Shown here: positions 25,779 through 40,114 of the stretch, one piece after another
Position numbering within the stretch: the first letter of the stretch is position 1
Layout of the letters: the number at the start of each line of letters is the position of its first letter
The notes under the pieces: model-generated
The model's input: only the letters and a program-made list of their open reading frames with translations
What the model was told of the DNA's origin: nothing
The model's database searches: none
Origin: Bifidobacterium bohemicum DSM 22767
GTDB lineage: Bacteria; Actinomycetota; Actinomycetes; Actinomycetales; Bifidobacteriaceae
Assembly: GCF_000741525.1 (NCBI RefSeq)
Contig: NZ_JGYP01000001.1
Span: 310,001 to 374,000 of the forward strand
Direction: 5' to 3'
DNA: 64,000 bases
Program-made: the position numbers and the translations under genes

Positions 25779-26153
25779 TCACCCTTTGGCCACGACCCGC
25801 ACCAGGCCGTGCAGCATGTTCATGCCGCACGCGTATGGGATCTCGCCGGGTTTGCTTGGAGTGAACTCGACACTCGTGGTCTGGAAGGCCGGAAGGGTGC
25901 GGTCGATGCCCAGATCGCTGAACACCACATGGGACGAGCATTCACCATCCTCCTGGCGATCGAATTCGAGCCGCACGGGCGAGCCGGCCTGAACTTCGAC
26001 AACCTGCGGGCTGTAGCCTCCCTTGACCACGATATGCGCAACCTGCACGGCTCCTTGGCGGTTCGCCGCAGCAGCTTTACGCGGCGCGAAGAAATACCAT
26101 ACGATCGCCGCCGTGAGCACGACGGCGATGATCACGACCACGATATTGCCCAT
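25779..26153 (-). CDS. Membrane-anchored cupredoxin-domain protein
   Basis: 124 residues: one N-terminal membrane helix, then a cupredoxin fold (QVAHIVVKGGYSPQVVEVQAG). Copper ligands are visible: His in SSHVVF, and Cys and Met in YACGMNMLHG. It probably binds copper on the outer face of the membrane and hands it to, or scavenges it near, the ATPase. GGAGG precedes GTG 26156 and ATG 26153; I used the ATG. Same strand as copA, 180 nt upstream of it, divergent from csoR across the CsoR-like operator, so likely copper-induced. Confidence 0.85.
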   Translation of the reverse strand: MGNIVVVIIAVVLTAAIVWYFFAPRKAAAANRQGAVQVAHIVVKGGYSPQVVEVQAGSPVRLEFDRQEDGECSSHVVFSDLGIDRTLPAFQTTSVEFTPSKPGEIPYACGMNMLHGLVRVVAKG

Positions 26154-26216
26154 CACGCAATCCTCCCCTCAACCTCGCATCAATAACGTACAACCTTTTC
26201 ATCTACCCTACGAACA

Positions 26217-26233
26217 ATACCCCCCTAGGGTAT
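26217..26233. promoter_or_regulatory. CsoR operator candidate
   Basis: ATACCC-CCCTA-GGGTAT, a perfect 6-5-6 inverted repeat between the divergent cupredoxin-copA and csoR units. It has the ATACCC...GGGTAT pattern typical of CsoR sites. TATACT (26231-26236), a possible -10 box for csoR, overlaps the right half, so bound CsoR would block the promoter. Confidence 0.75.
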
Positions 26234-26371
26234 ACTGTGTCAAGATGTAACGCTTCAGGTAAAACAAGGAGACAGACGGCACGGCAGCATGCAATACGCC
26301 ACGAAATGGCTGCCGGGTATCATCCCAACCACGACCGGACTGCCTACGGCACAGCAAATCGGAGGTTTCGA

Positions 26372-26872
26372 ATGGCCAAAAACATCAACAGCCGCAATGG
26401 AATAAAGCCCACGCGCAAGAAGTCGGGCACCACTCAGATCGACACCACCGCCGGTCGGCCGCGCTCTGCCGCTTCAGACGTGAACATTCGCCCGCACGGC
26501 GGCAACGCACAAACGCAGCGAAACGCGACCGGAACCAAAAACACGGACGGTCTTCACGTTCATGATTCAAGCGATGACCTCACCTGCACCCACGTGGGTT
26601 ACGTCCACGACAAACGCAAACTCATGGCCCGCATGCGCCGCGTCGAAGGCCAGGTACACGCCATCACCTCGATGATCGAGAGTGACACGTACTGCGTCGA
26701 CGTGCTCACCCAGATCGCCGCGTCGACCAGCGCCCTCAAATCGGCGGCGCTCATTCTGCTCGAAGACCATCTCAACAGTTGCGTGGCTTGCGCCGCCGCC
26801 CAAGGCGGTCCTGTGGCCGACGAAAAAATGGACGAGGCCATCGCCGCCATCACCCGCCTGGTCAAATCCTGA
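26372..26872 (+). CDS. csoR: Copper-sensing repressor CsoR
   Basis: A DUF156-type all-alpha repressor of 166 residues. The conserved core starts at about residue 80 (KRKLMARMRRVEGQVHAITSMIE). All three Cu(I) ligands are present: Cys in SDTYCVDVL, and His and Cys in LEDHLNSCV. The N-terminal 75 residues are polar, with a His-rich stretch (LHVHDSSDDLTCTH), an extension most CsoRs lack. ATG 26372 follows GGAGG; the in-frame GTG at 26237 is less likely. This leaves a leader of about 130 nt after the operator. It is expected to repress itself and the divergent copper genes until Cu(I) binds. Confidence 0.92.
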   Translation: MAKNINSRNGIKPTRKKSGTTQIDTTAGRPRSAASDVNIRPHGGNAQTQRNATGTKNTDGLHVHDSSDDLTCTHVGYVHDKRKLMARMRRVEGQVHAITSMIESDTYCVDVLTQIAASTSALKSAALILLEDHLNSCVACAAAQGGPVADEKMDEAIAAITRLVKS

Positions 26873-27092
26873 ACCATGTCTGTTCGCACATACCGCGCTC
26901 GAAACCACCGAATCGTCCATTATATCTATTTCACACGAGGCGTGAGGTCATTTTATTAAAGGAAAATAAATAATGTTCGTAAAAGGGAAAACCAGAATGA
27001 AATTAAAAATATATGGCTAGGCTTCAATTCGAGTTGTATAGTTAGTTATTGTCATTGTAATAATCGTGTTTCAGAGTCGAAGGCTTCAATCA

Positions 27093-28391
27093 ATGAATCA
27101 TTTAGACAGGGCACTAAAATATTCTATTGCAATATCGACCTTGCCTTTCGGCAAATCAGGGTTACTTGAAGAAAGTCAAATTGGAATGGATGCTCTTTCC
27201 TTGTGTTTGACAAGTCCATACATTGATTGCGAGGATGAAAAGTTAACGAAAGAATTGGCAGAATTCTTTGAAGCCGAAACGGTCGACAACCAGAATCAAG
27301 AGAATATCCTGTGTTTAAATTGGAATGTAAGCACTAGTGTTAAATACAGTCTCACGGGTTCAACGATAAAACTACACGCATTAAAGACCGGAAAATTCGC
27401 CAATCTAATAAACATGATGTCTTTCGAAGCAGATGATCGACAAAAATGGTTTTTGCAGAACACACATTCTTTGGGCATTCCATTCATCGACTCAGGCAGA
27501 CATAAGGTGGGATGGGTAGCAACTATTACCGATAGCGAGGCAGGACACCCAAAGCCTGTAATTGCAGTGTCTTCCAGTTCTCAGAACCCTAAAGCAATAG
27601 AGGCAAAGCTTCGTAAAGATAAAAAATGGGATTTTGAAATAGGCGTTGGTGATATGTACGCCGCAGGAGGACAGGATGTACCGAATGATCATTTTATTAT
27701 CCTCAAGTCCGATCAAAAAAGCAACAATATTCCAGACCGTATTAAATCTAATTCTGGATGTGTTCTCTGCAACGACCAAGAAACAACCGTAGAACATATC
27801 ACGCCTAGATGGCTAGTCGAACTTTTAAAAGTGAAACCATATACAAGTAGTCTTCTGTGCAAAGAACATAATACAAATCTGTTAGGGGATAATATCGAAA
27901 TACCCATAAGCAAAGCATATAAAAAGGGAGAACTGCTCAGCCACTGTAATATCGAAAAGTTCAAGTTTTGGTGCGTAAAAACTGCTCTTCTCCTCTCTTA
28001 CGCTGAGGGAGTTCGAATTCCCGAATCATGGATGCAAGCAATAGGAAAGTTGAAAATACCTGAAAACTTTATAGTTTTTTGTGCGGATAAACCAGCAGAA
28101 AACGGAACAGGTTATTCCGCAGGGATAAGTTTTTTCAATGGGGCAAGAACTAAAAAACAATATTATCTCGTTACGTTTATGTGTTCTGGAATACAGTTTT
28201 GCGTTATCCACTTACCAAAAGACAAACAAACAGAAAGCTTGAAGGAATCAATCTTACAATACATAAGTGCATCTGGATTTGTCGAAGAAGTTCAATTACA
28301 CCTAGGACTAATGGAAAGAATGACCGGAAACCCAATGAAATTTGATGCGACCAACAAAGTTGCCACGACTTCTTTCACATCTAGGCAATGA
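27093..28391 (+). CDS. HNH-motif protein of unknown function
   Basis: 432 residues, AT-rich and very different in base use from its neighbours, so probably acquired. The central part has a zinc-finger-type HNH motif: GCVLCN, 10 or so residues later EHITPRW, then LLCKEHNTNLLG, resembling HNH_5-type nuclease domains (CxxC ... EHI ... CxxH.xN). The N-terminal 220 residues and the C-terminal 150 match nothing I recognise. ATG 27093 follows GAAGG; GTG 27066 is also open. It stands alone at the left edge of the accessory island. An orphan nuclease of a defence or mobile element is a reasonable guess, not shown by the sequence. Confidence 0.65.
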   Translation: MNHLDRALKYSIAISTLPFGKSGLLEESQIGMDALSLCLTSPYIDCEDEKLTKELAEFFEAETVDNQNQENILCLNWNVSTSVKYSLTGSTIKLHALKTGKFANLINMMSFEADDRQKWFLQNTHSLGIPFIDSGRHKVGWVATITDSEAGHPKPVIAVSSSSQNPKAIEAKLRKDKKWDFEIGVGDMYAAGGQDVPNDHFIILKSDQKSNNIPDRIKSNSGCVLCNDQETTVEHITPRWLVELLKVKPYTSSLLCKEHNTNLLGDNIEIPISKAYKKGELLSHCNIEKFKFWCVKTALLLSYAEGVRIPESWMQAIGKLKIPENFIVFCADKPAENGTGYSAGISFFNGARTKKQYYLVTFMCSGIQFCVIHLPKDKQTESLKESILQYISASGFVEEVQLHLGLMERMTGNPMKFDATNKVATTSFTSRQ

Positions 28392-28477
28392 GCAAAACTC
28401 ACCAATGAGAACCCTAATAGTTAATTCATAGGCCATTCTGGATAGGTCCTTCAACTTGTCTAGATTTTCAACCATTT

Positions 28478-28925
28478 GTTTGCCGATAATGAAAAGTAAG
28501 CCTCCATGGGCTTTCAAGGCCGGTCCATACGTTGCAGATGGGGGTGTCGTTGTCTCGGCCGAAGGCGAGGTAGCCGGTTGAAGGTTTGGGCCGGTTGCGA
28601 CTGGATGTCCGAGAGCGATATATCCAACCCTTTAGCATCCTTGGCGAAGTATTGCCTTAGTTTCTCAGTGCGATCCGGGCTGTCGGTGACGTAGTCGGCA
28701 AGTGCCTTGGGCGCTATCCGCTCGCACACCTGCTCAGGCTCCAGGACTGGGACGGCATGGCTCTTCTTTCTGTATTCGGTTTTCGGCATATCGATACCGA
28801 TGGTCTGGGAGGCCGGACGTGTCTCCTGTTGGCGGATGCCGGCAGGCCAAAGGCATCGCAAGCAGGCCCACAACGATAATCGTGCCAAGCGCAGCCAGCG
28901 CCAGTTTTCGTTTCCTGTCGAACAT
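28478..28925 (-). pseudogene. Small membrane protein of a conjugative element, frameshifted
   Basis: It starts MFDRKRKLALAALGTIIVVG (one membrane helix) and continues in a second frame (SQTIGIDMPKTEYRKKSHAV...VCERIAPKALADYVTDSP) and a third (STGYLAFGRDNDTPICNVW) to TGA 28478. Two frameshifts, near 28845 and 28585, break it. Conjugative elements often place such an anchored accessory protein after the CHAP gene, as here. A related remnant lies at 36185-36415. Confidence 0.55.
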
Positions 28926-29379
28926 TCTCTTGTTCCCCTCGTATGTCTCAATGGATGAAGCTGATGCCGTCGCCCATGGCTTTGAGTTGTTGCGGGCTGA
29001 TGGTTTCGATGACGACGGCCATCCATCCGGTGCCTGACTGACTGATGATGATGGACCCGTCGTCCTCGACCTCCTCGACCACGGCCACACGCCCGTAGAC
29101 GGGGTCGGTGCCGTGCACGCCCGCCTCGAAGCACATCACGTCGCCGGGCCTCGGGCTGCGGGAGACCGGGTAACCGAGTTTGGCGGCGCTGTCGTTCCAT
29201 TGGGCACCGTTGCCCATGTAGGGGTCGACGGGTCTGCCGATCTGCCGGCGGCGGATGAAGGCCCACCAGGTGCATTGGAATCTCTCGTATGTGACTGATG
29301 ACTGGTCGGTGCCGGTGGCCTCCACGTTGACGTGGCGGCCGTCCGAGTTCAACACCAGCAGCGGACTGAGCCTGCCGAT
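28895..29379. repeat. Direct repeat, CHAP copy A
   Basis: Nearly identical over long runs to 36385-36862, same orientation. Similarity ends abruptly at the GAGCCTGCCGA shared by both copies (29379 here, 36862 there). The two copies bracket about 7 kb that includes the IS256-family element and the epipeptide locus. Confidence 0.75.
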
Positions 29380-29622
29380 GTTGCAGCTCTGTCCTCCGCC
29401 AATTATGCGATGTTCGTTCTCAAGGCATTTCCACATGTTTCGCGGGGTGCTGGTTATTTTGAGGCTACCCTCGCCGACGTTGTGCGCGATGATCAACGCG
29501 TCCCCGTCGCCGAGTTGCGCGCCAGCTCCATACTGAACATGACCGCCAGCACGACAGCCGTCAACGGCTTCACCGCCGTCTGGTGGATGTTCAGGGCAGT
29601 CTGATAGAGGCCGCTGTTCCAC
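28948..29622 (-). CDS. CHAP-domain peptidoglycan hydrolase, altered copy A
   Basis: The last 130 residues form a CHAP amidase/endopeptidase module: RFQCTWWAF with the catalytic Cys, GAQWNDSAAKLGYPV, SPRPGDVMCFEAG, and VYGRVAVVEEVEDDGSIIIS. The catalytic His expected in G-H-V-A-V is Arg here; copy B at 36.5 kb keeps His. The N-terminal 45 codons are only a shadow of the TrbL-like fragment, so the true N-terminus has been lost. Conjugative elements use such enzymes to open the cell wall. Probably inactive. Confidence 0.5.
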   Translation of the reverse strand: MEQRPLSDCPEHPPDGGEAVDGCRAGGHVQYGAGAQLGDGDALIIAHNVGEGSLKITSTPRNMWKCLENEHRIIGGGQSCNIGRLSPLLVLNSDGRHVNVEATGTDQSSVTYERFQCTWWAFIRRRQIGRPVDPYMGNGAQWNDSAAKLGYPVSRSPRPGDVMCFEAGVHGTDPVYGRVAVVEEVEDDGSIIISQSGTGWMAVVIETISPQQLKAMGDGISFIH

Positions 29623-29723
29623 GCCTCCGGACTCGATAACAGCAGGCTCGAGGCAAGGTTGCCGACCCCTCCGCCGACGACGGCGTTGAGCATGCCGACG
29701 ACGAGGTCCTGCAACGCGGACAT
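29493..29723 (-). pseudogene. TrbL/VirB6-like conjugation protein, N-terminal fragment
   Basis: The first 70 or so residues of a large membrane protein of the conjugative channel: MSALQDLVVGMLNAVVGGGV..., then NIHQTAVKPLTAVVLAVMFSMELAR. Full-length relatives have several hundred residues; here the frame ends after SATGTR and runs into the CHAP gene, so a deletion has joined the two. The ATG lies right after the stop of the Maff2-like gene, as in intact elements. Confidence 0.55.
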
Positions 29724-29724
29724 A

Positions 29725-29927
29725 TCAGAGGGCGACCGTCTTGAAGATCGCCGCAGCCGCGCAAATCAGGCACCGCCCAGAATCTGCCACATGCCCGACT
29801 TCATGTCGGGACCGTTCTGGTCCTTCAGCGCGCCGCCGAACGTGATTGCGCCCCACACGGCCCACAGGCCGCCGCCGATGATGGCGAACTTACTGAACAA
29901 CTCCAATATCTGCGGCAACTGCGTCAC
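29725..29927 (-). pseudogene. Maff2-like small membrane protein, frameshifted
   Basis: From GTG 29927 (AAGGGG upstream) it reads MTQLPQILELFSKFAIIGGG...GALKDQNGPDMKSGMWQILGGA, then meets a stop. Shifting frame gives CLICAAAAIFKTVAL and a stop just before the TrbL-like ATG. The two-helix layout with an QxLGGA...AAA end resembles the Maff2/pilin-like proteins next to TrbL in Gram-positive conjugative elements. Confidence 0.5.
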
Positions 29928-30151
29928 AGCCACACCCCTTACAAAAGCAAGAAAATCGGCCACGCGGACGCGCAGCCGGATATCAGTCTCTACCCCTCAG
30001 AGTGGAATATAGGCGGACGCAAAATGTTTTTCAAAACTATACTTACGCTATTGTTGCAGGCAGGATGAATTTAAGTGTTTGATAATCTTTTTCGAAAAGA
30101 ATCGTAAAATTAAAATATACTGCCACATAATCGTATTGCAAAAGGAGCATC
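29928..30151. other. AT-rich intergenic
   Basis: No gene seen. It separates leftward conjugation remnants from a rightward AT-rich gene and probably contains a junction between segments of different origin, since base composition changes sharply around 30000. Confidence 0.4.
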
Positions 30152-31008
30152 ATGCAATTGCTTTCAGAGTCTAAAATAAGCGAACTTCTACTGCTACCAA
30201 TCAGCACAAATCAAGCAAGAACATGTAGCATAAAAAATAATCAACTGCTTACTTCTTACAAATGTGATGTGACATCTGGTAATCACGATCCTGATATGTC
30301 CGATATAGCGATGAAGTTTTATCTAGCGCTATGGCCTGATTACATTAACATTATTATATAGGAAATTCTAAAAAAATTAATTTCGATAAATCCTTTATAG
30401 ACGTCTGCGGCGATACGATAAACTCCTTTAATGCAATCGCCACTAATGCAAGCAAAGAATTGAAAGACAACGACAACTTTTACATTGCCCCTGCAAACAA
30501 GCGAAGTTCACAAGATAAGCGTGAGTGGCCACCCTATTTAAGAGAATATTATGCTTTTTATCATTGCCTTGCGAATTTTTGGATAGCTCCAAAAGGAATA
30601 GGCCACGGCTGGCACCCTCACCACAGACAATGCGATATAAACCGAGGCAGATTTACCGGTCTACAGGATTATATTGATGCTTATTTACAAAAAATCTATG
30701 GCTTCTTTTGTCTTAATCAAAAAAATAATTTCCAATGTAAATACGATCCAGACAATAAGCACAGAACGTTTTACGAACAATTTGGCGATGAGCAAAAAGG
30801 ATGGGACACATTCATTAACGTTTTCTGCCTAGAACCATATCTTTCCAGTACAGTAAAGAACGAGTTCATCCGTCTAAGCATAATGAACGCTGAAACTTTT
30901 TGTGTAATCGTAAAGACATTAATTCAACAGAGAGCAGTTCTTTTAGCAGAAAAGTATCAGACTGAACTATCAATACTTTTTTCATCTCTGAAAACAGTGG
31001 ACCAATAG
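30152..31008 (+). pseudogene. Unknown AT-rich gene split by a frameshift
   Basis: A first frame of 69 codons (ATG 30152, GGAG upstream) stops at 30361. A second frame, open from about 30346 to 31008, continues with matching character (GNSKKINFDKSFIDVCGD ... YYAFYHCLANFWIAPKGIGHGW). Joined, they would make roughly 285 residues. The overlap of open frames is 30346-30358, so a 1-2 nt indel in the ATTATTATA repeat explains the break. The YHCLANFW motif recalls small phage/defence-associated proteins, but I recognise no family. The gene is near 35-38% G+C. Confidence 0.5.
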
Positions 31009-31112
31009 ATATTCATAGGTGGCGCACAAGTAAGCTACGCTTAATGCGCACCACCTAAATTCAATACTATTTATTACGTTTTCTAACCCAAACGGTATCC
31101 AACCCTATGGCA

Positions 31113-32481
31113 GTGTCTGGTAGTTTGCGCAAATTGGGTTTTCGGATTTGATAGGGGGCGTGGCCCCTTGCCTGTGTGCGATTTTCAATCGCCAGATCAA
31201 ATAATCGCTGATTGGAGAGCGGGTTGGGACCATGCCCGACAGCAGAATCATACAGGTCGACGAGTCCAAGTTCGAGACCGAGCTCGGCCGGCTCGTCTCC
31301 TCGAAGGTCGAGGAGATCCTCAATGCGATACTCGACGCGGAGCCCGACCAGGCCGCCGGCGCCGCGCGCTACGAGCGCAAGACAGGTAGGAAGGAAGGTC
31401 TATATCGCGCGGGCCATTACGAAAGGAGCCTGATAGTGAAGGCCGGCAGCATGACCGTCAGGGTGCCCAAGCTCAAGAGGGGCTTTGTTCGAGTCGGTCG
31501 TCATCCAGCGCTACCGGACGCGCGAGTCGAGCGTCGAGGAGGCGCTCATGGAGATGCACTTCAGTGGGGGTGTCGACCCCGGGTCGACGACATCAGCCAG
31601 GCGCTCTGGGGCGAGCGGGTGCCGCCCCAGACACTCTCGGACGATCTGAAGAGGGTCTACGGGGGCATCGACGCATGGCGGAACATGCCGTTGGAACGGG
31701 CCTTCCCGTACGTGTTCATGGACGGGATATGGCCGGAACGCAGCTGGGGCGGGGGCATCGAGAACGTGTCCGTCCTGGTCGCCATCGGCGTCGGCGAAGA
31801 CGGTCGCCGCGAGACCGTCGGCATAGCCGAGGGCATGAAGGAGGATTCTGCCAGCTGGGAATCGTTCATCCGCTCGATGCTCGACTGCGGGCTGGCCGGC
31901 GTCAGGCTCGTCATAGGCGACCGCAACCCGGGTCTGGCGCGCGCCGTCGGCGAGCTGCTCCCCCGCAGGCCCGCTACCAACGGTGCATGGTCCACTTCGA
32001 ACGCAACGTCCTAACCAAGGTGCCCCACCGGAAGAGCAAGCAGGTGGTGGCCATGCTCAAGGCCGTGTTTGCCATAAGAGGACCGCGGAAAGACACTGGC
32101 CAAGGCCGAATCGGTCGCCGTGGAGCTGGACGGCATGAAACTGAAGGAGGCCGCCGGATACCTGTGCGAGGGCATCGGAGAGACCACGACCCATCAGCTG
32201 CCGGAATTCCCCATGGAACACTGGAAGCTGATTCGCACCAACGACATGATCGAACGCCTCAACAGGGAGATACGCCGCAGGACCCGGGTCGTCGGCCAGT
32301 TCCTCGACGGGAAGAGCACCCTCATGCCCGTCACCGCGAGGATCCGCCACGTCACCCAAAGCTGGCCAGACCGCAGATACCTCGACATGTCCCTACCCGA
32401 ACCGAAAACCGAAAAAACGGTAGAAACACCGCACGAAGGCAATCAAGGCTGAAAACCAGAAGTGCACAACAAGCCTGACAT
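31113..32481 (+). mobile_element. IS256-family insertion sequence, inactivated
   Basis: About 1.37 kb bounded by imperfect inverted repeats of about 33 bp. The left end starts GTGTCTGGTAGTTTGCGC (31113), and the right end, read inward from 32481, starts ATGTCAGGCTTGTTGTGC. Both continue to a shared GGTTTTC; about two thirds of positions match. It carries a frameshifted mutator-type transposase. No 8-bp target duplication is visible, so one flank may have been rearranged. Confidence 0.7.
31232..32452 (+). pseudogene. IS256 (mutator-type) transposase, three frameshifts
   Basis: Starts MPDSRIIQVDESKFETELG at 31232. The N-terminal part has YERKTGRKEGLYRAGHYER and the VRVPKL motif; then the frame changes near 31485 (ESVVIQRYRTRESSVEEALMEM continues elsewhere). 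The central DDE core reads YVFMDGIWPERSW (first Asp) and VRLVIGDRNPGL (second Asp). A second shift near 31975 leads to RCMVHFERNVLTKVP, and a third near 32085 to the last part with RTNDMIERLNREIRRRTRVVGQF (catalytic Glu region). No single frame is complete, so it is inactive unless helped in trans. Confidence 0.85.
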
Positions 32482-32518
32482 TATCAAAAATCGCAACACC
32501 ATATTTTCCGTCAGCATA

Positions 32519-32570
32519 ATATAATAAATAACTTATACTGTGATAAGAATAACATTTTGTTATTTTTTTA
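32519..32570 (+). promoter_or_regulatory. Promoter and AT-rich hairpin before the epipeptide genes
   Basis: Two -10-like hexamers, TATAAT (32520-32525) and TATACT (32534-32539), lie between the IS right end and the precursor gene; no convincing -35 was found. Just downstream AATAACA-TTT-TGTTATT (32548-32564) is followed by TTTTT. This could be an attenuator-like weak terminator or an operator. Confidence 0.4.
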
Positions 32571-32587
32571 TTCGAAAGGAGGCGATT

Positions 32588-32710
32588 ATGGAAAAGTCGT
32601 CTGAAATCCTAAACAGTTTGCAGGCCAACGAGAATGTCATCGACCTCGAAGACCAAGACGATCTGTGGTATTTCATCAAGGGCGGTGGCAACTGGATTAT
32701 GGGCTCTTGA
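32588..32710 (+). CDS. epeX: Epipeptide precursor peptide (YydF/EpeX-like)
   Basis: A 40-residue peptide with a very strong ribosome binding site (AAAGGAGG, 5 nt from the ATG). The leader, residues 1-26, is acidic (ENVIDLEDQDD). The C-terminal core is DLWYFIKGGGNWIMGS. The B. subtilis epipeptide precursor, as I recall it, ends DLWYFVKSKENRWILGSGH; the W-Y-F-x-K and N-x-W-I-x-G-S parts align, with three residues fewer in the middle and no final Gly-His. In B. subtilis the mature peptide starts at that Trp, and a Val and an Ile are turned into D-forms. The equivalents here are Ile30 and Ile37. The radical SAM gene follows after a hairpin. Confidence 0.88.
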   Translation: MEKSSEILNSLQANENVIDLEDQDDLWYFIKGGGNWIMGS

Positions 32711-32723
32711 TCAACAACCGCTA

Positions 32724-32762
32724 GCCTAGGTGGGACAAAATGACATACATCCCACCTCGGGC
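32724..32762 (+). terminator. Hairpin between precursor and radical SAM genes
   Basis: An 8-bp stem AGGTGGGA/TCCCACCT (32728-32735 with 32750-32757), extendable with GCC/GGC outside it, in the 72-nt gap. There is no T-run. Such leaky hairpins are common after RiPP precursor genes and would keep precursor mRNA in excess of the enzymes. Confidence 0.6.
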
Positions 32763-32782
32763 TTCCCAAAGTAACAGAATAT

Positions 32783-33751
32783 ATGGAATCGGCTATCATT
32801 ATGACATCAATTTGCCTTACCTTCAGTTCTAAATGCAACATCTCGTGCGCTCATTGTTGCTTTAGCTGTGGCCCTCACTCAGAAGACCACTTATCAGAAG
32901 AGCAAAGTGTAAAAATCGTAGATGATGCGATTGCAAATGCTCATGTCAATTCGATAGGATTCTCAGGCGGAGAGGCTTTGCTTCATCGAAATCTTCTATT
33001 AAGCCTGATGAAAAGAGCATCGGAGGGAAATCTGAAGACCACCCTCGTATCGAACGGTTTCTGGGGACATTCTGTTGCAAACGCCCAGAATATATTGACC
33101 TTGTTAAAGAATGCAGGATTATCGACACTGACGCTGAGTTTTGATGAATTCCACGAAAAGTTCATCCCCACACAAAGAATAATCAACATCCTCCAAGCTA
33201 ATAAATATATAGGGATTCCCTGCCACATAAGCATGGCTGTCACAAAGGACCATACCGGCGAAGAACTAATCCACGATTTAGGCGAGGCTGGTTTCACCAT
33301 ACCAATCACCAGATTCCCAGTCGTTCCCGTAGGAGCCGCCGCACAATTACCGAAAGAAAATATCTATTCACACTACGACGCCAACGATCCTTTAATCTGT
33401 CCTGGCCTACAAATTACATATCATTTCAACGGTGACGTCTATCCCTGCTGCTCACCAGCCGTATTCCACACCTGCCTAAGCATAGGTGAAGTGAGCAATA
33501 CGCCAACCCACACCGCCTTGGAGAGGGTTTCCAGAAACAAACTATTTGCCCTCATGCAAAGAATAGGTCTACGAGGCATAGCAGAAATATGTAAAGAGCA
33601 TGGCATAGGACCTGATCTGACCAAGGTACCCGTTGTTGACCCGTGCGATCTTTGCCGGAAGATATTTGCCAATTCCAAGACTTTAGAAGCATTACTTCCC
33701 TATATCGATCAAGCCTACAGGAAGACGTTGCCAGACAAAGTCCAGTCATGA
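32783..33751 (+). CDS. epeE: Radical SAM peptide epimerase (YydG/EpeE-like)
   Basis: 322 residues, close to the length of B. subtilis YydG. The AdoMet iron-sulphur site is CxxxCxxC at Cys18, Cys22 and Cys25 (KCNISCAHC), followed by GFSGGEAL (residues 59-66) for SAM binding. The C-terminal part has further Cys residues (Cys206, Cys222-Cys223, Cys231, and DPCDLC near residue 289) that can hold a second cluster. YydG uses a C-terminal Cys as hydrogen donor in turning L- to D-residues; Cys222 or Cys223 is the candidate here. The start is ATG 32783 or 32801; neither has a good ribosome binding site. The stop overlaps the next start (ATGA). Confidence 0.85.
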   Translation: MESAIIMTSICLTFSSKCNISCAHCCFSCGPHSEDHLSEEQSVKIVDDAIANAHVNSIGFSGGEALLHRNLLLSLMKRASEGNLKTTLVSNGFWGHSVANAQNILTLLKNAGLSTLTLSFDEFHEKFIPTQRIINILQANKYIGIPCHISMAVTKDHTGEELIHDLGEAGFTIPITRFPVVPVGAAAQLPKENIYSHYDANDPLICPGLQITYHFNGDVYPCCSPAVFHTCLSIGEVSNTPTHTALERVSRNKLFALMQRIGLRGIAEICKEHGIGPDLTKVPVVDPCDLCRKIFANSKTLEALLPYIDQAYRKTLPDKVQS

Positions 33752-34521
33752 AATCATCTTTAGAAGAATATTACTCCGATGATGACGTCGAAATACTCAA
33801 AACTGGCAGCACAGCGGTCATCAGAAACAAAAGCAACAATCACTATTTCCAAGTACAAGTCGACTCATTACCGACTAATATTATTTGGGCCCCCGTAGTG
33901 CCACATATCAAAAGAACAATATTCATTGCTTATACTGTCATATGGATTATTGCCTTCGCATATCTTCTTTACCAGTACATAAACTCTTATAAGTCGTCGC
34001 TATCTCAACTAGTAAAACCCGTAGGCCTGTTATTATTTTTTGGCTATAGCCTAGTGAGTGTAGTATGCCATGAGTATTCTCACATACTAGCCTTGAAATA
34101 CTGCAAGGCGAATATAGATAAAGTGGGAATGAAGATGAATTATGGTGTTTTCCCAGCATTCTATGTCAGGATGAACAAAGTTTACCTTTTACCCAAGCGT
34201 GATCGTATAGTCGTCCATTCTGCTGGGCTCTTCGCTAATGTTTGCCTTGGTGCAGGCACAATCTTGATTAATAATATTTTTTTCCAAAATGCTGTTTTGT
34301 TCTCAGCAGTTAACATCTTTACGTATGGCATCATATGGAATTTACTGCCTATACTGAAATCCGACGGACAAAAGATTCTATTCACTATCCTTGGAGAGGC
34401 GCAACCTAGGCATGTTCATGACTACGGTAAAGTCGCACAGATCATAAACGTTGTAAGCTGGTTTGTGGCGATCTATTCCGCGTCAATGTTGGTGTTCGAT
34501 ATTTGGAGGCATTTCGTATGA
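33748..34521 (+). CDS. epeP: M50-type membrane peptidase (YydH/EpeP-like)
   Basis: 257 residues with about six membrane helices. The site-2-protease zinc motif HEYSH (108-112) lies in a helix, and the second M50 motif NLLPILKSDG near residue 205-215 supplies the Asp. It probably cuts the leader from the epimerised precursor in the membrane. Its ATG (33748) overlaps the epeE stop and its own stop overlaps the next start, so translation is coupled. AT-rich like epeX and epeE. Confidence 0.85.
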   Translation: MKSSLEEYYSDDDVEILKTGSTAVIRNKSNNHYFQVQVDSLPTNIIWAPVVPHIKRTIFIAYTVIWIIAFAYLLYQYINSYKSSLSQLVKPVGLLLFFGYSLVSVVCHEYSHILALKYCKANIDKVGMKMNYGVFPAFYVRMNKVYLLPKRDRIVVHSAGLFANVCLGAGTILINNIFFQNAVLFSAVNIFTYGIIWNLLPILKSDGQKILFTILGEAQPRHVHDYGKVAQIINVVSWFVAIYSASMLVFDIWRHFV

Positions 34522-35216
34522 ATATGAAACGCGTAGCCACCCAAGGGAAAGTCTATTTCACTGATTTTTCAGTCAAATACGGGAAACGGACGGTTCTGGA
34601 CGTGCCTGCGGACGGGTTCGAGCTCAGCGGGCAGACCATAGGGCTTTTCGGACCGAACGGAGCGGGTAAGACGACGATGATCAGGACGTTGGCGGGACTG
34701 ATCAACCGGTTCGGCGGCACGGTCGGCGCCCCAAGCCCGGATGCCATATCGTATGTGCCGGATGAGCCGTACCTCTACCCGTTCCTCGACATCAAGCAAT
34801 GCGTGAATCTTTTCGCCAACCGATATCCGGACTTCAATCAGGAGAAGTCCCTGAGCCTTGTCCGCGAATTGAACCTGCCTCTTGACAGGCCGCTGTCCTC
34901 CTTTTCCAAAGGCCAGACCGAGCAAGCCCATCTGATACTGAGTCTTTCCAGGGGATGCCCCTTGTACGTGCTGGATGAGCCGTTGGCATCGGTGGACCCG
35001 TTTACCAGGGACAAACTGCTCTCGATCATCCAGAAATCCACCAGCAAAAACTCGACCGTATTGATGAGCACCCACATCATCGCCGAGATAGAGGGGATAT
35101 TCTCCCACGTAATCATGATCAACAACGGACGCATCATCGCGAATGACTCCGTGGAACAGTTCAAAAAAGAATCCGACACGCTGGAACGGGCGTTCAAAGA
35201 CAGAATGGCGAGATAA
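34518..35216 (+). CDS. epeA: ABC transporter ATP-binding protein (YydI/EpeA-like)
   Basis: 232 residues, a standard ABC ATPase. Walker A GPNGAGKTT is at 45-53, the signature reads SSFSKGQTEQAHLIL, Walker B is LYVLDEPLASVDP, and the switch His is in MSTHIIAEIE. ATG 34518 has GGAGG 8 nt upstream and overlaps the epeP stop (ATGA). With the permease it forms a drug-type exporter; in B. subtilis the equivalent pair gives the producer relief from its own epipeptide. G+C is clearly higher than in the three genes before it. Confidence 0.9.
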   Translation: MNMKRVATQGKVYFTDFSVKYGKRTVLDVPADGFELSGQTIGLFGPNGAGKTTMIRTLAGLINRFGGTVGAPSPDAISYVPDEPYLYPFLDIKQCVNLFANRYPDFNQEKSLSLVRELNLPLDRPLSSFSKGQTEQAHLILSLSRGCPLYVLDEPLASVDPFTRDKLLSIIQKSTSKNSTVLMSTHIIAEIEGIFSHVIMINNGRIIANDSVEQFKKESDTLERAFKDRMAR

Positions 35217-36022
35217 TGACGAAACGGCCGACAATGAGAATGCTGCTCAACGAGACGAAAATCCAGGCACGCAAGTACCTGCACTTCAGCGCGGCTCTGT
35301 TGGCCATGCTGCTGCTGTGCGATGCCGTCAGCGTCATATTCCGCTCGACGCCCGCAGTCGTGAGCATCGCTGGAATGATACGCATCATCGCATGGTGCTT
35401 CACGATATGCTATTTCGCATTCGAATTGTTTCGATACGGAAACGGGGCCAACGACTATCTGCTCCTGACATTGCCAAGCAGAAAAACCAACGGCCTCACC
35501 CTCAAGGCGGTGACGTTCTTCTGCATCCTCCTCGTATTCACCCTGTTGGAATGCCCATTCACCGCGTACACGCTGTCCACGCACCTCACCGGAGCCGACG
35601 TGGCGAAAGTCATCGCCTACGACAGGGCGTCCCGCCTGCTGGGAATCATAGCCTTCCTCCTCATCTTCATGGTCGTCTCCTATCTCTCATTCCTTTTCAG
35701 GAACGTCGTCGTATCGGCGATCTTCACGTTCGGGATCTACCTCTCCGTGACCATCGCAGAAGGCTGCATGGTCCTCCTGCCAAGACTGCTCCACCAAACC
35801 GCACTGACCTGGGCCATCGGCTACAACTCCGACTTCGCGGGTGCAAGCCAATTCATCAACATCTTTCCGATCATGGTCTGGAACAACCAGAAGACCGGAA
35901 GCTTACAAGCCCTAGGAACGATATCCGGTACGGCCATCATCGCGAACCTCCTGCTAATCGCGGTTTTCTACTTCATTTGGAAACTCGTAAGCTCACACAT
36001 CCCGATGAACTACATAAAATAA
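35216..36022 (+). CDS. epeB: ABC transporter permease (YydJ/EpeB-like)
   Basis: 268 residues with six predicted membrane helices in ABC-2 arrangement (LNETKIQARKYLHFSAALLA at the N-terminus, loop with GNGANDYLLLTLPSRK, late IIANLLLIAVFYFIWKL). Its ATG overlaps the ATPase stop (TAATG). It would form the membrane half of the exporter or immunity complex. It is the last gene of the locus; no clear terminator follows. Confidence 0.85.
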   Translation: MTKRPTMRMLLNETKIQARKYLHFSAALLAMLLLCDAVSVIFRSTPAVVSIAGMIRIIAWCFTICYFAFELFRYGNGANDYLLLTLPSRKTNGLTLKAVTFFCILLVFTLLECPFTAYTLSTHLTGADVAKVIAYDRASRLLGIIAFLLIFMVVSYLSFLFRNVVVSAIFTFGIYLSVTIAEGCMVLLPRLLHQTALTWAIGYNSDFAGASQFINIFPIMVWNNQKTGSLQALGTISGTAIIANLLLIAVFYFIWKLVSSHIPMNYIK

Positions 36023-36184
36023 CCTACTTGTACGCATACATCTATGGCTCAGCTATGAAGCGGCATTCAGTGTGTCCCCTCTTGCCCGCTTTCCGATTCT
36101 CATCTTGACCACAATCGAAAATACACTATCTAAGATTTCCGGGTCAATCAATACATTGTAGACAGCGGCGTCTTGTTGACGACC
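36023..36184. other. Intergenic after the epipeptide locus
   Basis: No gene seen. It joins the end of the RiPP locus to the second set of conjugation remnants. Confidence 0.4.
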
Positions 36185-36415
36185 TTAGGTGCGGAGGCGA
36201 TTCGGCGGGCTGATCATTGTCGCTTCCATGTTTATCGGTTTTGGTTTATTGATGATAACCGATTGAATCGGAATGGAGGGAGGGGCAAACAACAAGTTGG
36301 ACGGGAGTGCGGCTTCATGATTTGGCATAGTAGAACAGAAGGCCATCACGCACAGTCCGGTCACAATGATTACTCCAGTACCATCAGCAGTTTCTTGCGT
36401 TTCCTGTCAACAAGC
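36185..36415 (-). pseudogene. Small membrane protein remnant, copy B
   Basis: Matches the start of the broken gene at 28478-28925 (DRKRKK then a hydrophobic IIVTGLCVMAFC), but one frameshift separates the basic start from the helix and no start codon is left. The rest (SVIINKPKPINMEATMISPP) has diverged and ends at TAA 36185. Confidence 0.45.
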
Positions 36416-36862
36416 TTCCTCTTCCCCTCTCTCCCGTGTATTTAGTGGATGAAGCTGATGCCGTCGCCCATGGATTGGAGTTGTTGCTGGCTGATGGTTT
36501 CGGTGACGACGGCCATCCATCCGGTGCCAGACCGGCTGATGAGAACCGACCCGTCGTCCTTAACCTGCTCGACGACGGCCACATGCCCGTAGACGGGGTC
36601 GGTGTCATGCACTCCCGCCTCGAAGCACATCACGTCGCCGGGCCTGGGGCTGCGGGAGACCGGGTAGCCGAGTTTGGCGGCGGTGTCGTTCCATTGGGCG
36701 CCGTCGCCCATGTACGGGTCGACGGGTTTGCCGATCTGCCGGTGGCTCACCAGGTGCATTGGAATCTCTCGTATGTGACTGATGACTGGTCGGTGCCGGT
36801 GGCTTCGACGTTGACGTGGCGGCCGTCCGAGTTCAACACCAGCAGCGGACTGAGCCTGCCGA
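36385..36862. repeat. Direct repeat, CHAP copy B
   Basis: Partner of 28895-29379 in the same orientation, with small differences and a 10-nt deletion. The right end is sharp at 36862. Confidence 0.75.
36442..36862 (-). pseudogene. CHAP-domain hydrolase remnant, copy B
   Basis: The C-terminal 105 residues are open (RQIGKPVDPYMGDGAQWNDT ... VYGHVAVVEQVKDDGSVLIS), and the catalytic His that copy A lost is present. A 10-nt deletion near 36742 separates this from the Cys part (SSVTYERFQCTW in another frame), and the 5' end is cut at 36862. Confidence 0.7.
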
Positions 36863-36904
36863 CGGCCGCTTCTGCGGACGGTTATGGGCTGCGCCCCCTG
36901 GAAT

Positions 36905-37492
36905 CTATTTGAAACGAATCGCGGAGACCTTGTCGAGGTACCTGCGACGGCGTTCGGGCGAGGAGCCGGTGACCCCGCCGAAATTGACCCACCTGCGCCC
37001 CTTCATCCCGAGCTGTTTGAGGGTGCCATCGACAAACACGCGTTTGATGCCGTCACCGGCCATGACCCTCAGCCAGATGGTGGGCGAGGTCGAGGTCGTG
37101 AACACGTAGGTGTGGCGTATGTTGCCCAGCTCGCCGTGGATGCCGGTGGGGGTGACGGTGTGGCTCAACCCCTCGCCCTCCTTCATGACCTTGTCGATGA
37201 AGCCTTTGAGCATTCCAGGTACGCTGTTCCACCAGACCGGCGTGACGAACACAATGCCGTCGGCCGAGCGGACCATGTCGAGGTATCTCCCGACCAGCGG
37301 GTCGTGGGTCCCGCCGGTGTGGAAAAGCCGCAGCTCCTCCCTGTCGTAGACGGGGTTGAATCCTTCGGCGTAGAGGTCGATGAGCCGCGTCGAATGCCCC
37401 CGGCTTTCCAACGCTTCGAGGACTCGTCCAAGAATGGCGTGGTTGAAGCTCTTCTCGTAGGGATGGCAGTACACGACGACATAGTTACTCAT
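36905..37492 (-). CDS. Flavodoxin-fold NAD(P)H oxidoreductase
   Basis: 195 residues of the NQO/KefF/MdaB type. The FMN/FAD site is seen in VVVYCHPYEKSFNHAIL at the N-terminus and in VTPVWWNSVPGMLKGFIDKV; DLYAEGFNP is typical too. Such enzymes carry out two-electron quinone reduction. ATG 37492 follows AAGGA; the longer frame from 37588 overlaps the repressor gene and is not conserved. It lies 79 nt behind a TetR gene with strong operators, so it is likely induced by an electrophile or quinone-like compound. Confidence 0.88.
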   Translation of the reverse strand: MSNYVVVYCHPYEKSFNHAILGRVLEALESRGHSTRLIDLYAEGFNPVYDREELRLFHTGGTHDPLVGRYLDMVRSADGIVFVTPVWWNSVPGMLKGFIDKVMKEGEGLSHTVTPTGIHGELGNIRHTYVFTTSTSPTIWLRVMAGDGIKRVFVDGTLKQLGMKGRRWVNFGGVTGSSPERRRRYLDKVSAIRFK

Positions 37493-37571
37493 ATGTGTTC
37501 CTTCCGGTTTGTTGCTGGTCGATGGCGTTCGTATTCGAAGATGGCGGCGGAGATCATATTCCGAAACGGAT

Positions 37572-38144
37572 TCAATGACGTCGGGCACCCAGAAAATCCC
37601 GCAACGTAATCACGAGCGATCGCTCGTCGTATGCGACGGTTCCATGACGCACCAGCAGGCTGTAGCCCTGTATGAACGACCAGACCTGAGTGAGTAGAAG
37701 GTCCGGGTCACCGGCGTGCTCATACTGGAGGCAGGCCTGTTCGACGATCGCACGTATCCGGGAGAGGAACAGTGGTGGCGTACCGCCGTATCCGCTTTTC
37801 GCCGCCTTGGCGTACAAGGGCCCATAGAAGAAGAAATCAACCAGGTTCGGGTCCGTCCGCGTCAACGAGAGCAGTTCCACGCCGACATGCAGAAGAGCGT
37901 CGAACGCGTCCGCACCACCCCCGTCCTCCGGAACCACGCGCCGGGCGAGATCCTCGGAGACCACGTAGCCCGCCCGGACCAGCAGATCCTCCTTGTCGGG
38001 GAAATGACGGTACAGGCAGCCCGTGGTCAGCCCAGCGGACGAGGCGATGTCACGCAGGGAGATATTCATGTACCCGTTCCGCTCGATGGCCTTGACCGTC
38101 TCCGCCAGCAAGCGCCGCTCCGAATCCGCCGCCGAATGCACCAT
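37572..38144 (-). CDS. TetR family transcriptional regulator
   Basis: 190 residues. The N-terminal helix-turn-helix is clear: LLAETVKAIERNGYMNISL, then RDIASSAGLTTGCLYRHFPDKEDLL. The C-terminal ligand domain is of the common PsrA/TetR_C type. ATG 38144 follows GGGGAGG. Two inverted copies of a 15-bp palindrome lie right upstream, so it represses itself and the oxidoreductase behind it. Confidence 0.9.
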   Translation of the reverse strand: MVHSAADSERRLLAETVKAIERNGYMNISLRDIASSAGLTTGCLYRHFPDKEDLLVRAGYVVSEDLARRVVPEDGGGADAFDALLHVGVELLSLTRTDPNLVDFFFYGPLYAKAAKSGYGGTPPLFLSRIRAIVEQACLQYEHAGDPDLLLTQVWSFIQGYSLLVRHGTVAYDERSLVITLRDFLGARRH

Positions 38145-38160
38145 ATTCCTCCCCTGCATA

Positions 38161-38204
38161 AAGATAACGCTGTTATCTTACCACCGAAGATAACAGCGTT
38201 ATCA
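38161..38204. promoter_or_regulatory. Double TetR operator
   Basis: GATAACGCTGTTATC (38163-38177) and its exact reverse complement GATAACAGCGTTATC (38189-38203), 11 nt apart, just upstream of the TetR gene. Each is itself a near-palindrome (GATAAC...GTTATC). Together they can bind two repressor dimers and cover the promoter. Confidence 0.8.
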
Positions 38205-38642
38205 GGCGCGTTTCGTCTATCCCGCATGACCGTTCACGGAAAGACCGGACGATTCAACGCACGACTACGGCACACAACAGCTCGGTCCACCCATTCGGTC
38301 CTGCCGTCGTCGAATCGACCCGTCTTACAACCCGCAAGGCAAGCCAAAGCCGTTCCCATCACGACAGAAGAGCGGCAGCGATGGGCCAACGCATATGGCA
38401 CCGCCCGTGGCGGCCTACGAGCCGGCATGCACGCTTCCGTCGGCCATGGGCGCCCATCCATTTCACGTTCACGCAACGGATAACCGCACGACCGATGCGA
38501 CACCTCTTATGACGGGGCCGGCAACGCTACCGACAGCGCCATCCGGCGAGGACATGCAAGCAATCGTCACCAATCGTTACCGACTCGATTTGTTCCAGTT
38601 TTGGCGATACCCTGAAACTCCAGTGTTTCCAAGGGTTTTCAG
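38205..38642. other. Intergenic, no supported gene
   Basis: About 440 nt between the TetR operators and tRNA-Pro. Reading frames of 60-90 codons exist on both strands but have no domain, ribosome binding site or protein-like composition. Confidence 0.5.
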
Positions 38643-38716
38643 TCGGGGCGACAGGATTTGAACCTGCGACATCCTGCTCCCAAAGCAGGCGCGCTACCAA
38701 ACTGCGCTACGCCCCG
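38643..38716 (-). tRNA. tRNA-Pro (TGG)
   Basis: A 74-nt cloverleaf: 7-bp acceptor CGGGGCG/CGCCCCG, D arm with AGTTTGGTAG, anticodon arm CCTGC-TTTGGGA-GCAGG (anticodon TGG), and T arm GCAGG-TTCAAAT-CCTGT. CCA is not encoded. The neighbouring genes are unrelated; as a tRNA it could serve as an integration site, but no att repeat was found. Confidence 0.95.
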
Positions 38717-38824
38717 ATGTGCCGTTCTGCTTCATAAACAACGGCACGGTATATCAGTATAACGCATGGGGGCAGACGACTCGCTACAATGGCGTAGGTC
38801 ATTGCATATACGAAAGGAACTGCC

Positions 38825-40114
38825 ATGGGGTTGCATCAGCGCACCGAAACCGCAGGCATCCTTTCATTCCTCGTTTGCGCAGCCGCCGGAGCCGGTGCGA
38901 TGAGCCTCGCAGGCACGCTGCTCTCCGCGGCATGGAAAATCAGTCTGCGCAGACTTCTTGTGGCGTCTGTTATCATCGCCGCATGCGGCACCATCTCGTT
39001 TATTCTCGGCTATGCGCATCCGTCACAGAACCCGCAAAACACGAGACTCCGTTGGCTCTCACGTATCCGCAGACTGGCCGAAACGCTTGCACTGGCGACG
39101 GTGTATGCATCCACGATTTTCCTGACATCGTATGCCGCACTCTACATCGTCAATGCGGTTATGGGGCCGCTGTTTCTTGACTATCTGACCGCCATCTGCG
39201 CGGGTCTTTCCGGCATCGCAGGGTACGTAACGCTGGTGCAGGCCGAGATGATGGACGCGAAAACGCTGGCCAGTCTGCTGCCGGTTTTCGTCATAGCCGG
39301 AGTGAGTGTCGCGGGACTGACCACCGACGACCAGAACTGGTACACCAACAATTTCTCGCAACTGGGCGATCGCACAACATTCGCAGCCAAAATGTTCAAC
39401 TCCACCGCGATTCTGACCGGCATCTGCATTATCATCATCAGCTATTTCTGTGTCTCCGAGCTCATCACCACCTACCGTCAACGCGTCGAATGGCGCCAGA
39501 ACCAAGGCCCTTTGCAAGGCGGACACACCATCAAGCACTACAAACTGCGCCTGACAGTGCTTTCCCTATTGCTTACGCTCGCCGGAATGGGATTCATGGG
39601 GGTGGGCACATTCCATTACACCCCGCACCCGATGCTGCACAACGGCTCGGCACAAGGACTGACCGCCGCAGCTGCGATACTGTTGATCGCGCTGCCTTGG
39701 ATCGCCCCACAGCTCTCGATTTCGATTTATGCAGCTGGCTATCTGGCCGTTGCAGTCTGCTCGGTTGAAATGCGGCAATGGTTGACCGGGCATAGCACCA
39801 TGACGAACGCCGAAGCCCTGGCCGCGATGTGCTTCCTTGGCTGGTTCATCATGTTTTCACGTCAGATCGCATCCATTGAATCCGACCGTATCGCCGAACA
39901 AATCGTGCGTACGGCCAACGAAGAAGCCGGACTCGCCGCTGCGACAAGCCTCGCGTCAGGCGGTTCGATGAACACCGCGGATGCGGTCAGCGCAGCCGGG
40001 GCGGTTACGGATTTGGCGGGGATGACCACCGTCAACATCCCCGCGCATACGGTGGACGCGGTCAAACCAACGAGGGGAAGACGAATCCACTCCCGCATCA
40101 CACCGTCCGCATGA
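38825..40114 (+). CDS. DUF998-like integral membrane protein
   Basis: 429 residues with about nine hydrophobic helices. The loop DDQNWYTNNFSQLGDRTTFAAKMFNS is typical of DUF998 membrane proteins. The C-terminal 70 residues are cytoplasmic and Ala/Thr-rich. ATG 38825 has AAAGGAA upstream. Function unknown; single gene. Confidence 0.8.
   Translation: MGLHQRTETAGILSFLVCAAAGAGAMSLAGTLLSAAWKISLRRLLVASVIIAACGTISFILGYAHPSQNPQNTRLRWLSRIRRLAETLALATVYASTIFLTSYAALYIVNAVMGPLFLDYLTAICAGLSGIAGYVTLVQAEMMDAKTLASLLPVFVIAGVSVAGLTTDDQNWYTNNFSQLGDRTTFAAKMFNSTAILTGICIIIISYFCVSELITTYRQRVEWRQNQGPLQGGHTIKHYKLRLTVLSLLLTLAGMGFMGVGTFHYTPHPMLHNGSAQGLTAAAAILLIALPWIAPQLSISIYAAGYLAVAVCSVEMRQWLTGHSTMTNAEALAAMCFLGWFIMFSRQIASIESDRIAEQIVRTANEEAGLAAATSLASGGSMNTADAVSAAGAVTDLAGMTTVNIPAHTVDAVKPTRGRRIHSRITPSA

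Follow-up and report, generated by a model that had tools for sequence, protein, structure and literature searches.

A probable epipeptide-type gene cluster with an ABC pair unlike YydIJ in Bifidobacterium bohemicum

Five genes of Bifidobacterium bohemicum DSM 22767 very probably form an epipeptide-type biosynthetic cluster that belongs to an actinobacterial branch, with D-residues predicted at Ile30 and Ile37 of its peptide, a cut by an M50 protease and an ATP-binding cassette (ABC) pair other than YydIJ. They lie intact on the plus strand at 32588-36022 of a 64,000-nucleotide stretch of the genome (contig NZ_JGYP01000001.1, positions 310,001 to 374,000; hereafter the window) and encode, in order, a precursor peptide (X), a radical S-adenosylmethionine (SAM) protein (E), an M50 protease (P), an ABC ATPase (A) and an ABC permease (B), the last four genes overlapping by 4, 4 and 1 bases. 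The class, gene order, intactness, overlaps and coordinates had been proposed in an initial annotation of the window, and all are borne out by NCBIfam matches and the positions of the open reading frames (ORFs). The epipeptide class itself is already known, and what we cautiously put forward as new is an actinobacterial branch of it with swapped transporters.

Three core proteins of the epipeptide family

Judged from sequence comparisons, the precursor, the radical SAM protein and the M50 protease are members of the epipeptide family. The 40-residue epeX-like precursor (32588..32710) follows a strong ribosome binding site, AAAGGAGG, which the initial annotation had also noted and whose end lies five bases ahead of the ATG at 32588. 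The peptide, which contains no cysteine and was aligned with 18 other precursors, matched TIGR04077 at E 3.8e-5 (23.6 bits, cut-off 35). When a hidden Markov model (HMM) trained on eight EpeX peptides of Bacillota was searched against the 1007 window ORFs of 15-150 codons, the precursor ranked first (E 3.6e-6, runner-up at E 6.7) and was the sole convincing match, and none of 5000 shuffled versions of the peptide reached 23.7 bits (best 11.0), such that a relationship to YydF is found with both the NCBI profile and the Bacillota-only HMM. Alignment with Bacillus-type EpeX peptides gives a predicted leader of residues 1-26 and a predicted core, WYFIKGGGNWIMGS, in which Trp27 is the first of 14 residues and the aromatic/aliphatic pattern WYF(I/V)...W(I/V).G is kept. 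The residues predicted to be epimerized are Ile30 and Ile37, which align with Val36 and Ile44 of B. subtilis, in line with the likely 14-residue product carrying two D-residues that had been proposed at the outset.

The 322-residue epeE-like protein, a putative radical SAM peptide epimerase (32783..33751), scored 275 bits against TIGR04078 (YydG; cut-off 300) with the next family at 59 bits, and in a sequence comparison with the PDB its match to B. subtilis YydG/EpeE (8ai1) scored 203 bits, versus 24 for SkfB. Its AlphaFold2 model (predicted local distance difference test score 91) superposed on solved EpeE structures with template modelling (TM) scores, normalised by query, of 0.88-0.90, the other listed matches being at or below 0.56. 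The radical SAM motif CNISCAHC supplies C18, C22 and C25, and these three, together with C206, C222, C223, C288 and C291, were invariant in all 25 rows of an EpeE alignment that combined the window enzyme with 24 out of 107 retrieved proteins. Four of these residues (C206, C222, C288 and C291) are the presumed ligands of a second, auxiliary [4Fe-4S] cluster, and C223 aligns with Cys223 of B. subtilis EpeE, for which passages of one review propose a role as hydrogen donor (PMC8326336). Exchange of this cysteine for Ala in the B. subtilis enzyme is reported to lead to breakage of the peptide. A second EpeE-like copy was not found elsewhere in the same genome.

Alternatively, the enzyme might install a sactionine, a ranthionine or a C-C crosslink on the precursor instead of epimerizing it, a view to which the weak matches of SkfB and PqqE models and structures lend something. 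In NCBIfam, however, SkfB reached 33 bits and PqqE 28 against 275 for YydG, and the TM scores of SkfB (0.55), the sactipeptide maturase 5why (0.51) and PqqE (0.47) stand against 0.88-0.90 for EpeE; a thioether with the precursor is, moreover, impossible because the precursor has no cysteine. The protein thus goes with EpeE in both sequence and fold and not with PqqE or the sactisynthases, and we consider any such other reaction very improbable.

The third core gene encodes an epeP-like membrane M50 metalloprotease of 257 residues (33748..34521) with the zinc motifs HEYSH and NLLPILKSDG, which matched PF02163 and scored 162 bits against NF058609 (YydH/LiaK; cut-off 225), the next family being at 59 bits. 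The corresponding motifs HExxH and N..P....DG were present in all 26 EpeP proteins checked.

Relatives in other Actinomycetota

In the initial annotation, an actinobacterial copy had been an isolated surprise, a view that a wider search overturned. In a pattern scan covering 84,980 species genomes, relatives of the window radical SAM enzyme turned up at 44 loci, of which 15 were actinobacterial, from Cellulosimicrobium, Cellulomonas, Bifidobacteriaceae UBA2724 (two), Bifidobacterium sp. B4142, Corynebacterium, Arcanobacterium, Boudabousia, Microbacteriaceae, Curtobacterium (two), Nocardiopsis, Actinomyces (two) and one unclassified actinomycetote. EpeP was found at all 15. In an EpeE tree with 29 rows, one for the window and 28 drawn from the 44 loci, the window paired with UBA2724 (support 99/95) inside an actinobacterial clade of eight rows (96/98), and Actinomycetota as a whole may or may not form a single clade (48/86).

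These data also bear on whether the cluster came by recent transfer from Bacillota, as the low G+C content of its E and P genes and the published family being known from Bacillota might suggest. The window EpeE is 41-45% identical to the actinobacterial enzymes of loci L002-L005 versus 31-34% to four Bacillota proteins (more distant actinobacterial EpeE proteins are also just 31-39% identical to it), the eight-row clade is actinobacterial throughout, and the window-type permease occurred at none of the 16 Bacillota loci scanned; we therefore give a recent transfer from that phylum almost no credence.

Within its own surroundings the locus is rare, as a search of the genus at E 1e-10 recovered an epeE-like gene in 1 of 112 genomes, the window's own, and a class-level sample at E 1e-40 in 2 of 394, namely the same genome and one whose precursor is identical to that of Nocardiopsis (L016). 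Carriage on phages or plasmids was considered and rejected, with one weak fragment in viral contigs (L070, 39% over 75 residues) and matches in 5 of 72,556 plasmid records at 24-32% identity, two of them annotated YydG and from Macrococcus/Macrococcoides.

Precursors and neighbours were scanned at 31 of the 44 loci (15 actinobacterial and 16 Bacillota), which with the window make 32, and an EpeX-like ORF lay near EpeE in 26 of them, the window included (19 being the profile seed and 7 lying outside it). Three leader types occur among the actinobacterial precursors: DLxDQDDL in the window, L002, L003 and L005-L007, with ELADQDDM in L004; VVDD(L/M) in L009-L011, L013 and L016; and HNDDLW or DSDDLGW in L008 and in L026 and L029, respectively. 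At two loci, L012 and L022 (Streptococcus sciuri, a Eubacteriaceae locus), the precursor-like ORF lies 3' of the protease gene and does not lead the operon.

Set beside B. subtilis epeXEPAB/yydFGHIJ, the window shares the gene order, the EpeX core pattern, EpeE Cys223, the M50 EpeP and a terminal ABC pair, and it differs in a leader that ends DLEDQDDL instead of LAKVNDL, in a core of 14 versus 17 residues that lacks the C-terminal GH, in an ABC pair from other families and in the lack of a PspA/LiaH match in its genome. Some features weigh against assigning the cluster to the epipeptides. The NCBIfam scores of all three core proteins are under the curated cut-offs, and we therefore take them to be divergent family members. 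The predicted epimerization sites lie 7 residues apart here, as they also do in the Boudabousia and Nocardiopsis precursors, versus 8 in the Bacillus-type peptide, and the position of B. subtilis Asp210 (changed in PDB 8ai6) is Gln in the window enzyme, in a column where 20 of the 25 rows have Asp or Glu, 4 (that of the window among them) have Gln and one has Gly. Among the 32 loci, L017, L024, L031, L032 and L034 are without an EpeX-like ORF, and L030 has a weak candidate only. Lastly, the stem-loop between the precursor and epimerase genes (32723..32763, plus strand), of which Bacillus locus L018 has a counterpart, was not significant against dinucleotide shuffles (z -1.5; 13 of 200 shuffles as good), and while 10 of 16 folded X-E intergenic stretches reached z <= -2 against letter shuffles, 6 of the 16 loci were without one.

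An ABC pair other than YydIJ

The initial annotation had identified the two transporter genes with YydIJ/EpeAB, and this part of it has to be given up. The ATPase (34518..35216, 232 residues) is PmtA/DrrA-like and not YydI-like, with PmtA as its best NCBIfam match at 110 bits (cut-off 350), which makes the resemblance to the PmtAB/PmtCD phenol-soluble modulin exporters a likeness of transporter type only, and the YydI model (NF058610) was not among its best 25 NCBIfam matches. The 268-residue permease (35216..36022) did not match the YydJ model (NF058605), and a comparison of EpeB permease profiles gave an hhalign probability of 0.59%, with no detectable homology; as a control, the ABC pair of Bacillus locus L018 scored 333 (YydI) and 350 bits on the YydI/YydJ models. 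A single-sequence search with the permease returned only the protein itself and one relative at 59%, and no PDB entry was matched at E <=0.001 in a Foldseek search. VIA-align pointed to ABC-2 exporters with a Z that is middling for a helical protein. An ABC-2 (type V) exporter fold is likely. No second copy of the permease was found in the same genome.

On these profile comparisons, the ABC module of the window differs from the one carried by the Bacillota loci examined, and the X-E-P core occurs in Actinomycetota with two transporter modules other than YydIJ. The window's own module is present at, among others, the X-E-P-A-B loci of UBA2724 (L004), Cellulosimicrobium (L002) and Cellulomonas (L003), which have a near-identical leader motif and fall in the same clade as the window in the E, A and B trees, whereas their EpeE proteins are at most 45% and their EpeB proteins 22-29% identical to those of the window and their cores differ. 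The second is an FtsX/MacB-type module at the X-E-P loci of Bifidobacterium sp. B4142 (L005), KR13 (L006), Corynebacterium (L007) and UBA2724 (L030), where FtsX was assigned by Pfam in L005 and L007, the MacB-like ATPase by NCBIfam in L007, and L006 and L030 by layout and sequence. These loci have the E-P core of the window and, at L005-L007, its DLxDQDDL leader motif, but transporter order and families differ and the core ends HW or NW without W(I/V).G. Cores such as SYFVTQGTVLHW at L005, L006 and L007 are without the second W(I/V) site, which suggests that they carry a single D-residue or that the second site has shifted. The UBA2724 genome holds two epipeptide-type loci (L004 and L030), one per transporter module. 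A protein named for Bifidobacterium (P0012) is 80% identical to the B4142 enzyme, and with the B4142 locus itself this indicates that the genus also has the FtsX-type version.

The abrupt G+C change between the protease and ATPase genes, from which the initial annotation had suggested a composite origin, is real: the epimerase gene has 45% G+C and the protease gene 39%, versus 54% for both the ATPase and permease genes, with third positions at 44-47% in E and P and at 73-77% in A and B, and the step is the largest among the loci compared. This is what one might see if an X-E-P block had entered this lineage and been joined there by the ABC pair, and the P tree leaves the partner of the window unresolved (77/83). 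The A and B trees, however, give the window the same UBA2724 partner as the E tree, with moderate support (91/90 and 92/92), Cellulosimicrobium and Cellulomonas adjoin this pair in both (87/85 in the A tree, 99/98 in the B tree), and of 11 related loci, 9 likewise have more G+C in A and B than in E and P, though the difference is smaller than here (at two of the nine, only P was measured). Because the A and B genes share the partner of the E gene and most relatives have a smaller step that runs the same way, the data do not support a recent composite origin, which we judge quite unlikely; the simplest reading is a block inherited jointly in this branch, with an older transporter swap relative to Bacillota.

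Putative product and its role

In the mode of action considered likely, the precursor would be made in excess over the enzymes, perhaps through the X-E stem-loop, a possible attenuator or mRNA stabiliser for which the folding evidence is weak. The EpeE-like enzyme would then take the alpha-hydrogen off Ile30 and Ile37, with Cys223 giving one back from the other face, as is proposed for B. subtilis EpeE in passages of PMC8326336, and the EpeP-like protease would cut ahead of Trp27 in the membrane to leave the peptide of about 14 residues. This peptide, likely exported or cleared from the producer's membrane by the ABC pair, would disturb the membranes of competing Gram-positive bacteria, an action known of EPE in B. 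subtilis; for epimerization and cleavage as for killing, the inference is drawn from the characterised member. Proteusin epimerases of the PoyD type likewise combine radical SAM epimerization with a protein cysteine as the proposed donor and, as stated in part of the same review, have no significant homology to EpeE (PMC8326336).

Passages of one study describe killing by EPE through membrane permeabilization and name LiaIH, not YydIJ, as the main resistance of B. subtilis (PMC7026026), and passages of a later paper describe EpeAB as an immunity transporter and also give a role to EpeP (PMC12871923). PspA/LiaH was considered for self-protection and set aside, as no match was present in the 96%-complete genome of the strain in a search that matched 9 of 14 control genomes, and protection would therefore rest on the ABC pair.

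It is also conceivable that the peptide, once modified and secreted, serves as a signal within the population of the producer and that the ABC pair would export it or import it for sensing. The NCBI short name of the precursor model denotes an exported signalling peptide (expor_sig_YdyF), and the toxicity data covered come from the Bacillus member, not from actinobacterial ones. A signalling role is nevertheless unlikely in our view, given that the characterised member permeabilizes membranes, that the core keeps the aromatic/aliphatic pattern and that the cluster itself (32588-36022) contains no gene for a receptor or a regulator. If the cluster is active as an epipeptide-type system, it gives Bifidobacterium a small D-amino-acid antimicrobial. 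The plain core has a monoisotopic mass of 1614.77, which epimerization leaves the same, and mass screening alone would therefore not flag the modification.

Epipeptides are described as a Bacillota family in the literature passages covered, and no actinobacterial epipeptide was reported in the passages searched, the main distribution study being outside that search and an earlier description possible; a literature search found no published mention of epeXEPAB in Bifidobacterium. Five radical SAM matches with actinobacterial organism names were labelled just 'radical SAM protein', and such bare labels together with scores below cut-off may explain why loci of this kind are overlooked. Taken more broadly, Actinomycetota may have their own epipeptide branch, in which a fixed X-E-P core is combined with exchangeable transporters (a PmtA-like or an FtsX/MacB-like pair replacing YydIJ) and a moved or dropped second site, and the two versions may both serve bifidobacteria as D-amino-acid weapons against rival Gram-positive bacteria, a proposal for which we see the arguments as evenly balanced. 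Natural cores with a spacing of 7 or 8, or with apparently one site, make the site choice of EpeE directly testable, and the swapped transporters offer a test of whether the pair serves immunity, export or both.

Genomic setting

A short palindrome, AATAACATTTTGTTATT (32548-32564), lies between a possible -10 element (TATACT) and the precursor ribosome binding site and is a possible operator. Further upstream, a low-G+C ORF of 441 residues (27066-28391) contains CVLCNDQETTVEHI, an HNH-like motif by eye only; Pfam and PADLOC gave no match for it, and PADLOC gave none for two neighbouring ORFs. A search of Rfam over 26000-39000 found only the tRNA. A bifid-shunt-type phosphoketolase fits the assignment to Bifidobacterium. 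An empty insertion site could not be read in the three relatives compared, where the flanks were far apart or on different contigs.

Upstream of the precursor gene lies the remnant of a Mutator-family (IS256-type) transposase (31232-32452), with one ORF (31232-32014) matching just positions 23-247 of the 379 in the transposase profile and a second in another frame (32120-32452) judged by eye to be the rest. A CHAP-domain fragment is duplicated on the minus strand (28952-29378 and 36446-36862, pieces 91-97% identical), the two copies lying about 7.5 kb apart and flanking both the transposase remnant and the cluster. Among the genus matches listed, the six closest CHAP relatives outside this genome sit in open frames of 355-681 residues, and both window copies therefore look truncated; they are perhaps remains of a conjugative element, and together the transposase and CHAP debris would fit an arrival on a mobile element.

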